The translations under genes were made by a program, and so were the position numbers. A stretch of DNA of 64,000 nt, taken from NCBI GenBank assembly GCA_030745875.1, contig JASLNT010000129.1, positions 1-64,000 of the forward strand. Direction: 5' to 3'. Within the stretch, counting starts at the first letter, position 1, and each line of letters opens with the position of its first letter. Under the pieces are notes generated by a model. The model worked only from the letters and a program-made list of their open reading frames with translations, did no database searches and was not told the DNA's origin. This stretch comes from Phycisphaerae bacterium. GTDB taxonomy: Bacteria > Planctomycetota > Phycisphaerae > SM23-33. Shown piece by piece: positions 8,225 through 11,574 of this stretch.

Positions 8225-8252
8225 TTGACCCTGTCCGGCGGAGACATATAAT
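8225..8252 (+). promoter_or_regulatory. Putative sigma-70 promoter of the YbjQ/PrsW operon
   Basis: TTGACC (8225-8230) and a perfect TATAAT (8247-8252) are separated by 16 bases. The start codon of the first gene lies 41 bases further on. The same TTGACC-16-TATAAT arrangement occurs at 9955-9982. Confidence 0.75.
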
Positions 8253-8293
8253 CAGGTATACGTTTTTCTACACGTACAGAAAGGATGTGGGCG

Positions 8294-8632
8294 ATGGCGG
8301 TTTACCTTAGCAATACCGAGCAAGTACCCGGGTATCGAGTAGCAAAACAGATCGGACTGGTCTCAGGCAACACGATTCGCGCCAAACACGTCGGTCGAGA
8401 CCTGATGGCCGGGCTCAAGACCATAGTCGGCGGAGAGATAAAGGGTTACACCGAACTGCTGACCGAAGCCCGCAACGAAGCGATCACCCGAATGAGCGAC
8501 CAGGCCGAGCGACTCGGAGCCAACGCCGTAATCAACGTGCGTTTGAGCACCTCGGCGGTGATGTCGGGAGCGGCTGAGCTGTTCGCGTACGGAACGGCGG
8601 TGGTCCTGGAGCCTGAAGGAATCCAACAATAA
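8294..8632 (+). CDS. YbjQ family (UPF0145) protein
   Basis: This 112-residue protein belongs to the YbjQ/UPF0145 family of small oligomeric cytoplasmic proteins, sometimes called heavy-metal-binding domain proteins, whose role is not established. Family features are the opening strand (TEQVPGYRVAKQIGLVSGNTIRAKHVGRD), the RNEAITRMSDQAERLGANAVINVR helix-strand unit and the end AELFAYGTAVVLEP. The ATG at 8294 is chosen because AAGGA lies eight bases upstream, whereas the ATG at 8285 touches that ribosome-binding site. It is the first gene of an operon: its stop overlaps the start of the next gene, a second YbjQ-type protein with a membrane anchor. Confidence 0.85.
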   Translation: MAVYLSNTEQVPGYRVAKQIGLVSGNTIRAKHVGRDLMAGLKTIVGGEIKGYTELLTEARNEAITRMSDQAERLGANAVINVRLSTSAVMSGAAELFAYGTAVVLEPEGIQQ

Positions 8633-9108
8633 TGGATACATTTGACATCATCCTGATATTCAGTCCGGTACTCCTGATTGTTCTGGGTTTTCTGACTGGT
8701 AAGATCATCGAAGCCAGCCACTTCCGCAGCCTGGCCAGACGCGAGGCCCTCGGCGGACCGATGCTTAGCAACCTCAAGCGCATCCCCGATGATCGCACGC
8801 CGCTGGCGACGCAGTTCTGCGTCGGCGGAGTCGTTATCGCCAGCGACTACTTCAAGACTTTCGGCGCCAGACTCAAGAGTCTTGTTGGCGGACGACTCAG
8901 GACGCTGGAGACGATGCTCGATCGCGGACGCAGGGAGGCCATGCTCCGCCTGCGGGATAAGGCTGCGCAATTCGGGGCCGACGTGGTGATAAGCGTACGC
9001 CTCGAAACGGCAGTAATCATGAAGAGCAAAGGGGGCAAAACCTACCCCGCCGCCGAGGTGATCGCTTATGGAACTGCCGTCAGGACCGCCGCCAACACTA
9101 ATATATGA
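8632..9108 (+). CDS. Membrane-anchored YbjQ-like protein
   Basis: The protein has 158 residues. An N-terminal transmembrane helix (about 5-25, IILIFSPVLLIVLGFLTGKII) is followed by a YbjQ-like domain. The RREAMLRLRDKAAQFGADVVISVRLETAVIM unit and the end VIAYGTAV closely parallel its upstream neighbour, so the pair probably arose by duplication with gain of an anchor. Its ATG overlaps the stop of the first gene by one base (TAATGG), indicating translational coupling, and the PrsW-like gene begins inside its 3' end. No function is established for this architecture. A membrane-bound partner of the soluble YbjQ protein is a reasonable guess from the operon, no more. Confidence 0.75.
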   Translation: MDTFDIILIFSPVLLIVLGFLTGKIIEASHFRSLARREALGGPMLSNLKRIPDDRTPLATQFCVGGVVIASDYFKTFGARLKSLVGGRLRTLETMLDRGRREAMLRLRDKAAQFGADVVISVRLETAVIMKSKGGKTYPAAEVIAYGTAVRTAANTNI

Positions 9109-9658
9109 TCCGCCAAAACGACTGTCTCGACGTCCGGCGGCGGTCGTGGTGTGGTTCATCGCGATTATAGGCAGCGTCTGCGGAACAGGTGCGGCGATAT
9201 TTGAAAACTCCATGGCGATGTTTAATCCGCTGCTATGGATATTCCTGGCTGTCGCGGTGGCTCCGGCGGTCGAGGAGATCTGCAAACCGCTTGCGATTGT
9301 GTTCCTCCTGGACAAACGCCCCCACTGGTTTCGCAGCCGGAAGGAAATCGTCATCCTGGCCGCATTATCGGCGCTCGTGTTTGCGTCGCTCGAAAACCTG
9401 CTGTACATATTCGTCAACAATCCGGGCGGTTCGGCGAATTACGTGATATATCGCCTGACAGTATGCACCGCGCTGCACATGACCGCATCGACAGTGTTCG
9501 GATTCGGACTGGCGAAAATGTGGCGACACATACAGGACAAAGGCGGACAGTTCAATATCGACGTATGCTTCAAATACTACGCAGCAGCAGCAATAATACA
9601 CGGACTCTACAACGGCTCGGCTATGCTGATGATGTGGTCGGGTGTCCTGGAATTCTAG
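9068..9658 (+). CDS. PrsW-like intramembrane metalloprotease
   Basis: This 196-residue multi-helix membrane protein carries the PrsW/CAAX-protease type signature: E69-E70 followed by K73 (AVEEICKPLA), E109 (FASLENLLY), H137 (ALHMTAS) and H178 (AIIHGLYN), all placed in or next to predicted membrane helices. PrsW of Bacillus cleaves the anti-sigma factor RsiW at site 1; other relatives process lipid-modified or membrane substrates. The ATG lies 41 bases inside the preceding YbjQ-like gene, so expression is probably coupled. No sigma or anti-sigma pair lies beside it, so the substrate is unknown; the anchored YbjQ-like protein made from the same mRNA is the nearest candidate partner. Confidence 0.8.
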   Translation: MELPSGPPPTLIYDPPKRLSRRPAAVVVWFIAIIGSVCGTGAAIFENSMAMFNPLLWIFLAVAVAPAVEEICKPLAIVFLLDKRPHWFRSRKEIVILAALSALVFASLENLLYIFVNNPGGSANYVIYRLTVCTALHMTASTVFGFGLAKMWRHIQDKGGQFNIDVCFKYYAAAAIIHGLYNGSAMLMMWSGVLEF

Positions 9659-9954: not shown

Positions 9955-9982
9955 TTGACCGGTGACATCAAGGCCTTATAAT
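9955..9982 (+). promoter_or_regulatory. Putative sigma-70 promoter for the 10021 gene
   Basis: TTGACC (9955-9960) and TATAAT (9977-9982) are 16 bases apart, followed 39 bases later by the start codon. The boxes and spacing are identical to those of the promoter at 8225-8252. Confidence 0.75.
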
Positions 9983-10020: not shown

Positions 10021-11574
10021 ATGAGTAAGGGACGGAATAAGATACTACTCCTGATCATCCCGGCCGCAGTTCTGTTAATCGTCGGCTATCTGTATGTCCG
10101 AGCAATGCGCCAATTACCGGTGGGCCCCATCCGGACAACAATCTCGAAAGAGACCACGCACATTCTCGGACCGGTCAATGAGGACGGCACGGTCAACTAC
10201 ATGGCTTACCTGAACGCCAAACACTCCAAAGGCGTCACAAGAGAAAACAACGCCGCAATCCCAATGATCGATATCTTCGGGCCGGATTGGCTACGGAAGG
10301 ACACCGGCGGGAAAATCTACAAGATACTGAATATCTCTCCTCCCTCAGCAGGCCAGAAGCATTTAACCTCCCTGGAGGACCACGTCAGCGAGACACTCAG
10401 CAAGGAAGACAGATCCACCTTCTGGGACAAAAACAGTAAACTGCCGATACACGAAACCAAACTCTGGAACGCCAAACAGTATCCCCTGGTGGCTGGATGG
10501 TTGGAGGACAACAAAGGCGCCTTGGATGCAATTCTGGTCGCCATGGAACGACCCCGATACTACATACCCGCAGTTTCGTACGATGAGGATGAGTGCATAG
10601 CAACTTTGGTCAGGCCGGACGTGCATCCGCCCATGAGTGCAAGCAGGGCTCTGACCGCACGGGCAATGTTGAAAGTCGAATCCGGCGACATGACAGGCGC
10701 GTGGGCCGACTTGACGGCGGCAAGGCGTCTGGCCAGACGGGTCGCCAGCGGATACACGGCCATCGAGAACTTACTCGGCGTATGGATGGAGAGAAAAGCC
10801 TTCTCCGCCATCCGTGAGATGGCGGGCTCAGGAAAACTCACGAGCGAGCAGGCGCAAGCGTTCCTAACCGACATGCAGAGCCTGGAGCCCATGCCGGATC
10901 TGCTGGACAATGTCAACGAGTGCGAACGATTCATGATGCTCGACATGGTGATGTTAATCGCCCGTACAACCCACCAAGAGGGGCTCGGAGAAGCGATGGG
11001 GGACATACAGTCAGGAGAACAGAAGCTGCAGTCGAACACGAGGTCCCTGGAATGGGACAGAATACTGGTAAGAATAAATCCCTGGTATGACAATGTAGCG
11101 GCCGCCGCCCGCCATAAAGTATTCAAAGACCGTTCAGTCGCCCTGGCCGACCACGATCGCCGCCTTACTGAATTGAGCGAAGAGCTCTATGAATCCAACA
11201 CGTCTCTGACGACTGTATGGAATCATCTCTTCGACCCGACTGAAGCGATCGGTAATCTCCTGATCGGTGTGTTCATGAATTCTCACGCCAGCGGGATCCT
11301 ACAACGTGATATGGCTAGGGCCGAGGGAGACTTGTCTGTAGTTACGATGGCGTTGGCGGCGTATCGGGCGGAGAAGAAGGTTTATCCTGACAAACTCTCG
11401 CAGTTGTCGCCAGGGTATCTCAAGAAGGTCCCCGATGATCTGTTTATCGACAAGCCGTTTTTCTACGAGCGGACAGGCAAGGGATATCTGCTCTACAGCG
11501 TCGGTGGAAATATGAAGTTCGAGGGCAAGAAAGAAGATCAATGGACTGGCGACATTGTCGTGCGGGTGGAGTAA
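10021..11574 (+). CDS. Membrane-anchored protein of unknown function with pseudopilin-like C-terminus
   Basis: This 517-residue protein starts with one hydrophobic helix (about 8-27) that should leave the rest outside the cytoplasmic membrane. The middle is mostly helical and unrecognised (for example NNAAIPMIDIFGPDWL and the ARAMLKVESGDMTGAWADLTAARRLAR helix). The last 70 residues follow the pattern of the C-terminus of major pseudopilins (GspG): an AAYRAEKKVYPDKLSQL helix, then PDDLFIDKPFFYERTGKGYLLYSVG and a closing DIVVRVE strand. I believe such proteins are common in planctomycetes, but I know no assigned role. It is a single gene under its own promoter, and mfd follows. Confidence 0.7.
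   Translation: MSKGRNKILLLIIPAAVLLIVGYLYVRAMRQLPVGPIRTTISKETTHILGPVNEDGTVNYMAYLNAKHSKGVTRENNAAIPMIDIFGPDWLRKDTGGKIYKILNISPPSAGQKHLTSLEDHVSETLSKEDRSTFWDKNSKLPIHETKLWNAKQYPLVAGWLEDNKGALDAILVAMERPRYYIPAVSYDEDECIATLVRPDVHPPMSASRALTARAMLKVESGDMTGAWADLTAARRLARRVASGYTAIENLLGVWMERKAFSAIREMAGSGKLTSEQAQAFLTDMQSLEPMPDLLDNVNECERFMMLDMVMLIARTTHQEGLGEAMGDIQSGEQKLQSNTRSLEWDRILVRINPWYDNVAAAARHKVFKDRSVALADHDRRLTELSEELYESNTSLTTVWNHLFDPTEAIGNLLIGVFMNSHASGILQRDMARAEGDLSVVTMALAAYRAEKKVYPDKLSQLSPGYLKKVPDDLFIDKPFFYERTGKGYLLYSVGGNMKFEGKKEDQWTGDIVVRVE

Follow-up and report, generated by a model that had tools for sequence, protein, structure and literature searches.

The window, a stretch of 64,000 nucleotides from a Phycisphaerae bacterium (contig JASLNT010000129.1), contains three overlapping genes that encode a soluble YbjQ protein, a second YbjQ protein anchored in the membrane, and a PrsW-type intramembrane protease. 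The features of this locus, all on the forward strand, are these:

8225-8252, + strand: sigma-70-like promoter TTGACC-N16-TATAAT, 11/12 matches
8280-8285, + strand: Shine-Dalgarno-like sequence AAAGGA, before the ATG at 8294
8294-8632, + strand: soluble YbjQ, 112 aa (PF01906 YbjQ_1, 5.1e-38, 130.3 bits)
8632-9108, + strand: membrane-anchored YbjQ, 158 aa (PF01906, 2.3e-21, 76.7 bits, residues 46-151)
8638-8748, + strand: residues 3-39 of the anchored copy, predicted as membrane helix plus cytosolic juxtamembrane helix; they contain G19xxxG23, E27, H30, L34, R37 and E38
8767-9084, + strand: YbjQ domain of the anchored copy (PF01906 match)
9068-9658, + strand: PrsW-type intramembrane protease, 196 aa (PF13367, 3.9e-22, 79.2 bits)
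9095-9115, + strand: TLIYDPP in the predicted cytosolic N-terminal tail of PrsW, by comparison a degenerate single copy of the tail motif that fails the strict pattern
9272-9286, + strand: EExxK active-site motif (E69, E70, K73), identical in 68/68 aligned PrsWs
9392-9394, + strand: E109 (ENxxY), conserved in 68/68 PrsWs
9476-9478, + strand: H137, conserved in 68/68 PrsWs
9599-9613, + strand: HxxxN motif (H178, N182), conserved in 68/68 PrsWs
9955-9982, + strand: second TTGACC-N16-TATAAT, preceding the next gene (10021)

The original prediction described an overlapping three-gene cassette under one strong promoter, with a membrane-tethered second YbjQ, and the cassette is confirmed. The genes overlap by exactly 1 and 41 bases, and all three score above the curated Pfam cut-offs (23 bits for PF01906 and 23.5 bits for PF13367); a single sigma-70-like promoter stands ahead of them; and both hydropathy and the structural model place one membrane helix at the N-terminus of the second YbjQ. 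In two relatives (L112 and L113), the Shine-Dalgarno sequence, extended to GAAAGGA, and the promoter hexamers are largely kept upstream. The next gene has its own promoter, which suggests that the trio stands apart as a unit. That gene (10021-11574) encodes a protein of 517 aa, predicted to have a single membrane helix at the N-terminus and with a C-terminus weakly resembling type II secretion pseudopilins, and lies directly 3' of prsW in the related genome G002 as well. The genome that contains the window (6.2 Mb, 131 contigs) encodes three YbjQ domains, two of them in the trio, and a single PrsW, the trio's own. The third YbjQ (L002, G000:C1:119108-119413) is a 186-aa protein whose domain is preceded by two predicted membrane helices, and similar proteins of 184-185 aa are found at four other loci (L022-L024 and L027).

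The trio is by no means peculiar to this genome, so the absence of co-occurrence elsewhere, which the original prediction named as a refutation, does not hold. Among 76 loci picked from public genomes on the PrsW sequence alone, 68 (three of these called by eye because the open frame was over-extended) encode soluble YbjQ, anchored YbjQ and PrsW in this order; the remaining eight comprise one anchored YbjQ-PrsW pair at a contig end and seven loci with PrsW only. Among the carriers are cultured strains, namely Adhaeretor mobilis HG15A2 (L181) and the isolate Kiritimatiellaeota bacterium B1221 (L203); the trio also appears in records titled Verrucomicrobia, Sumerlaeota and Acidobacteria. One record (L206, that is, G057:C1, JANQQE010000024.1) is titled 'Alphaproteobacteria bacterium', a title that looks wrong, its genome being placed in the window's class. 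Searches of 80 relatives for each family recovered YbjQ in 23 and PrsW in 14, with the complete trio in five (G002, G022, G046, G057 and G058) besides the window's genome. In a sample of 199 genomes of the phylum, YbjQ is present in 73, PrsW in 61 and a tandem YbjQ pair in 18; PrsW lies directly 3' of the pair in 13 of these and 5' in one (G104), an M48 metallopeptidase is the neighbor in one (G240), two pairs have no protease (G124 and G178), and one is cut (G219). YbjQ as a family occurs in 10 of 14 control genomes.

Gene order and overlaps are conserved in many Planctomycetota families and also in other phyla, the intergenic gaps within the unit being mostly between -41 and +62 bases, and the flanks are not conserved: among 22 loci compared, only the YbjQ and PrsW clusters recur in more than three. 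The 10021-11574 gene and mfd travel with the unit in the window's genus (G002) and nowhere else among these loci. Chance neighborhood and lineage hitchhiking are ruled out, since the unit stays constant while its flanks differ, and the proposal that the three genes form a functional trio is strongly supported. The window's soluble copy shares 57-90% identity with those of 19 other pairs, and a soluble copy is never absent where an anchored copy is complete in its context.

The two YbjQ proteins appear to be the fixed part of this module, and the protease the replaceable one. A tandem YbjQ pair was found in 53 genomes, in 46 of which a membrane protease is adjacent (27 PrsW and 19 M48 metallopeptidases), the other seven being five pairs with no adjacent protease and two cut by contig ends; this tally includes two non-independent genomes, the query genome itself and G277, a search center reached through a PrsW hit, without which the 51 pairs divide into 25 with PrsW, 19 with M48, five with none and two cut. 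Around single ybjQ genes, by comparison, neither PrsW nor M48 occurs within 1.5 kb at any of 35 control loci (the control took in 60 loci, 25 of them pairs, and some loci share a genome). The five genomes with protease-less pairs have no PF13367 match anywhere, and their M48 proteins are only general relatives. Among the 154 genomes of G240's class, 15 loci encode an anchored copy, followed by an HExxH protein in 13 (G240 included) and by PrsW in two; in the phylum of strain B1221 (145 genomes), 17 pairs are accompanied by PrsW in seven cases, M48 in six and neither in three, and one is cut by a contig end, PrsW being found in that genome at the start of another contig. Thus, the soluble and anchored YbjQs form an obligate pair that is nearly always encoded with a membrane protease.

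The HExxH partners match the M48 family of Pfam (PF01435) in five of five scanned, with 97.6-108.3 bits against a cut-off of 20.3, and the two histidines and the glutamate of the motif are invariant in 11 aligned sequences. They have a single membrane span after a tail of 23-29 residues with 3-8 lysines or arginines, a charge distribution that puts the catalytic domain probably in the periplasm and the conserved tail in the cytosol. These tails share a MKFVPRxL-type motif distinct from that of PrsW. An EP motif common to both kinds of tail was considered, because MVEFEPREL of the G240 protein looked alike, and was rejected given that the other M48 partners have MKFVPRxL or similar. In a quick tree built from 114 anchored copies, with weak support for 41 of 110 inner branches, the M48 label requires one change, inside the PrsW-type copies, which rules out many independent swaps and implies that the exchange of PrsW for M48 was one event. 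Two pairs without a protease (L129 and L130) are sisters of the M48 clade, and M48-type anchored copies have a common two-residue deletion (18 of 19 copies at one column and 17 at the other).

The AlphaFold2 model of the anchored copy (pLDDT 90.7, pTM 0.82) consists of a helix (residues 3-39) that passes through the membrane and a YbjQ domain, and its best matches in the PDB, 1y2i_A (E 2.5e-5, TMt 0.74) and 1vr4, both belong to the YbjQ family; RcsF (2y1b) is a weak ninth match (E 0.075). The 18 residues after G23 contain on average 4.7 lysines or arginines, so the YbjQ domain should be cytosolic, and the predicted topology is N-out/C-in. Conserved positions among the 114 anchored copies are H30 (111), G23 (110), E38 (99), E27 (96), R37 (94) and G19 (86), and the alignments show only a few residues ahead of the membrane helix, leaving almost no extracytoplasmic part. 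The Pfam title of PF01906 refers to heavy-metal binding; no cysteine is found among the 32 invariant columns of 20 aligned soluble copies. Neither YbjQ of the trio has a Pfam match to the SPFH/Band-7 domain at E values up to 1. Structures of YbjQ proteins are described, in passages of PMC4092069, as pentamers with the RcsF/DUF1471 fold. Because the soluble copy always accompanies the anchored one where the context is complete, the two likely act as a hetero-oligomer.

The original prediction offered the tethered copy as either a substrate or a regulator of the protease. The first of these options would be regulated intramembrane proteolysis: PrsW would cut the membrane helix, and the freed YbjQ domain would join the soluble copy as a signal. 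The adjacency and overlap of the genes are compatible with such a scenario, the conserved GxxxG in or near the helix could make it cleavable, and PrsW of Bacillus subtilis cuts a single-span protein, the anti-sigma factor RsiW, as described in passages of PMC4602095. However, the anchored copy offers no ectodomain for a site-1 cut, the partner can be an M48 peptidase instead, with its catalytic domain predicted to be periplasmic, the most conserved residues lie in the domain and in the juxtamembrane stretch on the cytosolic side, and the tail motif of PrsW described below would be left unexplained. We therefore favor the regulator, given the M48 swap, the scant extracytoplasmic part and the predicted cytosolic location of the conserved elements, and consider cleavage of the anchored YbjQ possible but unlikely.

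Five membrane helices are predicted for the PrsW of the window, with the N-terminus inside. Lysine and arginine number on average 2.0 before helix 1, and 2.7 and 3.8 in the loops presumed cytosolic, against 0.16-0.37 in the loops presumed outside, placing the N-terminal tail on the positively charged side. All of the predicted catalytic residues (E69, E70, K73, E109, H137, H178 and N182) are kept, identical in 68 of 68 aligned PrsWs, with asparagine replacing the aspartate of HxxxD. Against the PrsW equivalog model NF033739, the window protein scores 26.1 bits, below the cut-off of 225. Its AlphaFold2 model (pLDDT 91.0, pTM 0.85) has no Foldseek match in the PDB under E 0.001; a second fold comparison gave APH-1 as the best match (5a63_C, Z 9.2, rmsd 4.3, 158 aligned residues), below the level trusted for helical bundles, and Rce1 is absent among the PDB matches listed, so that the likeness of the modelled structure to the APH-1/CAAX fold is suggestive only.

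The module's PrsWs are marked by a motif in the predicted cytosolic tail, (D/E)xSV(W/F)(D/N)EP(H/A)L with H, Q or D in position x, which occurs in one to three copies at a spacing of often about 36-42 residues. The strict pattern, which was formulated from a reading of 10 tails, is found in 59 of 70 scored tails, in 85 copies against 0.53 expected from shuffled tails, although copies in homologous tails are not independent of one another; in none of 35 non-module PrsWs of the sampled Planctomycetota genomes is it present. When nine scan loci judged to be copies of places fetched earlier are left aside, the strict motif is seen in 50 of 61 tails, and a relaxed pattern in 60 of 61, with 113 copies in all against 12.3 expected. 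Six of the 76 tails (L150, L212, L213, L214, L215 and L217) could not be scored as no EExxK/R was placed, in L150 because the active-site motif reads ED, the tail itself containing SVWDEPAL; the start of L218 is mis-called. The motif is a repeated, module-specific element of the cytosolic tail. Moreover, it predicts the YbjQ pair where the genes are unlinked: both PrsW-only loci that have the motif (L155 and L173) lie in genomes with a pair elsewhere, the L212 locus is a contig break whose other contig ends in a YbjQ pair and a motif-bearing tail, and the four PrsW-only loci that lack it (L213, L214, L215 and L217) lie in genomes with no anchored copy and only one, different YbjQ. The motif is not indispensable, however, as it is absent from the PrsWs of L120 and L123, and the window protein and its nearest kin (L112 and L113) have a degenerate YDP or YEP or nothing, without a proper copy.

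The motif-less lineages, together with the protease-less pairs, would fit a scenario in which the three proteins share a pathway, such as envelope or metal homeostasis, and are expressed together with no contact between them, the tail motif binding something else. Yet, the protease swap and the one-to-one link between motif and pair in unlinked genomes are hard to reconcile with mere co-expression, and the aligned soluble copies have no conserved set of cysteines or histidines typical of a metal site. We regard this scenario as improbable.

YbjQ also occurs in other settings. A second conserved operon consists of genes for an ECF sigma factor, a two-span protein and a soluble YbjQ, which abut or overlap by a few bases (L098, L110, L111, L250, L252, L254, L255, L258, L259, L261 and L262). 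Same-strand ECF sigma genes accompany 19 of 63 single-YbjQ loci, mostly from one family and partly from a search in that class, and in 10 of the 19 the two-span protein lies between the sigma gene and ybjQ. This protein has conserved EPxD and C-terminal DPYxKxxR stretches, and we read it as anti-sigma-like; the Pfam evidence is a sub-threshold zf-HC2 match in one. In the genome G532, an ECF sigma gene (L296, 136-690) lies directly 5' of a YbjQ pair that has no adjacent protease. Three genomes (G041, G050 and G067) contain two adjacent multi-YbjQ genes (L141, 3745-6709; L143, 3925-6974; also L142), preceded by a gene for a 128-129-aa protein of unknown kind. In both neighborhoods run against Pfam (G050 and G041), a PspA/IM30 gene comes next after them (PF04012; 104 bits in L141 and 95 bits in L143), another link of YbjQ to envelope stress. 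The ECF and PspA contexts both point to the cell envelope. In the family f6 (L007, L009, L010 and L012), the gene after a single soluble YbjQ encodes a small protein with one or two spans and a conserved YYNPxTGxRDYxPE-like C-terminus, with no Pfam match in the two examined.

The sigma operons, and the pair of G532 that directly follows an ECF sigma gene, lend some plausibility to a further scenario, in which the module would make the site-1 cut in ECF anti-sigma factors whose genes lie elsewhere, with YbjQ as a stress sensor; RsiW, the known substrate of PrsW, is an anti-sigma factor (PMC4602095, in the passages on its cleavage). Against this idea, no ECF sigma or anti-sigma gene recurs beside the trio: only 8 of 132 scanned pair loci, a count that takes overlapping fetches of one place separately, have any such hit in their flanks, G532, seen in two of them, is the only adjacent case, and the sigma operons are mostly in other genomes, in one family. 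A role in anti-sigma cleavage thus seems rather unlikely.

Taken together, a replaceable protease, an irreplaceable pair and a tail motif tied to that pair fit a membrane-tethered docking adaptor, and we give a little better than an even chance to the reading that the YbjQ pair serves as a membrane-tethered adaptor or regulator on the cytosolic side, docking an envelope protease. Under this scheme, the anchored and soluble copies would assemble into a tethered cytosolic oligomer, like the pentamers of crystallized YbjQs, which would bind the tail of the protease, in the case of PrsW through the (D/E)xSV(W/F)(D/N)EP(H/A)L motifs; the tail motif and the juxtamembrane stretch of the anchored copy are both predicted to be cytosolic. 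The oligomer could then control the assembly, location or substrate access of the protease in envelope quality control or stress signalling. A broader generalization, which we put forward tentatively and hold to be possible but doubtful, is that YbjQs serve in the cytosol as receptors that recognize short linear motifs in membrane-protein tails: a mixed ring of soluble and anchored copies would dock and gate the envelope protease, PrsW via SVWDEPHL-type repeats and M48 via the MKFVPRxL tail, and other YbjQs would do likewise with the two-span anti-sigma-like proteins of the ECF sigma operons, via the DPYxKxxR C-terminal tail. If true, this would define a new family of protease adaptors or peptide-docking modules and a function for the widespread YbjQ family.

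Known families supply the parts of the module; what appears new is how they are arranged, and the tail motif. In the literature searched, which lies outside subscription papers and preprints, we found no description of a module of a YbjQ pair and a protease, no co-mention of YbjQ with M48, and nothing on 'intramembrane protease' with Planctomycetota; YbjQ and PrsW were found together only in a list of predicted functions in Corynebacterium, in passages of PMC7456259. For the widespread YbjQ family, structures have been solved but no function is settled, and the conserved, exclusive link of the pair to membrane proteases of two unrelated classes, along with the tail motif, suggests that YbjQ may act as a partner of envelope proteases, a role open to testing. 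The module adds a candidate protease adaptor to the poorly charted envelope biology of Planctomycetota and their relatives, and PrsW-type proteases gain what is, within the literature searched, their first candidate partner outside sigma-factor control.

Among known systems, Rce1 and Ste24, the CAAX proteases, belong to a PrsW-like and an M48 family, respectively, whose jobs are interchangeable, much as the two types are interchangeable as partners of the YbjQ pair. The module differs in having no known CAAX box or prenylation, and its M48 protein has one membrane span. The likeness between PrsW and the CAAX fold is noted in passages of PMC4602095, and M48 CAAX proteases are listed in PMC9263693. 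With PrsW of B. subtilis, the site-1 protease for RsiW, the module's protease shares EExxK and the conserved histidine in a later helix, with HxxxN where HxxxD stands; unlike it, the module's PrsW has about five membrane helices, compared with eight in most representatives (as given in part of PMC3482391), has in most cases the repeated cytosolic tail motif, and has no anti-sigma gene alongside. Both YbjQ copies match the model of the YbjQ/UPF0145 family (PF01906; PDB 1y2i, 1vr4 and 2gtc), whose known structures, however, are soluble single-domain proteins with no assigned function, whereas the module has, next to a protease, a paralogue that is anchored in the membrane and is an obligate partner. 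RcsF and the DUF1471/BhsA envelope-stress proteins have the same fold as YbjQ (according to passages of PMC4092069), but are periplasmic or in the outer membrane, whereas the YbjQ domains of the module are predicted to be cytosolic. An analogy in mode of action, although built of unrelated families, with neither an SPFH domain nor an AAA+ protease in the module, may be HflK/HflC with FtsH, and stomatin with NfeD, where a membrane-tethered oligomer of two related proteins is likewise encoded with a membrane protease and thought to control it (abstracts of PMC13220708 and PMC10153343).
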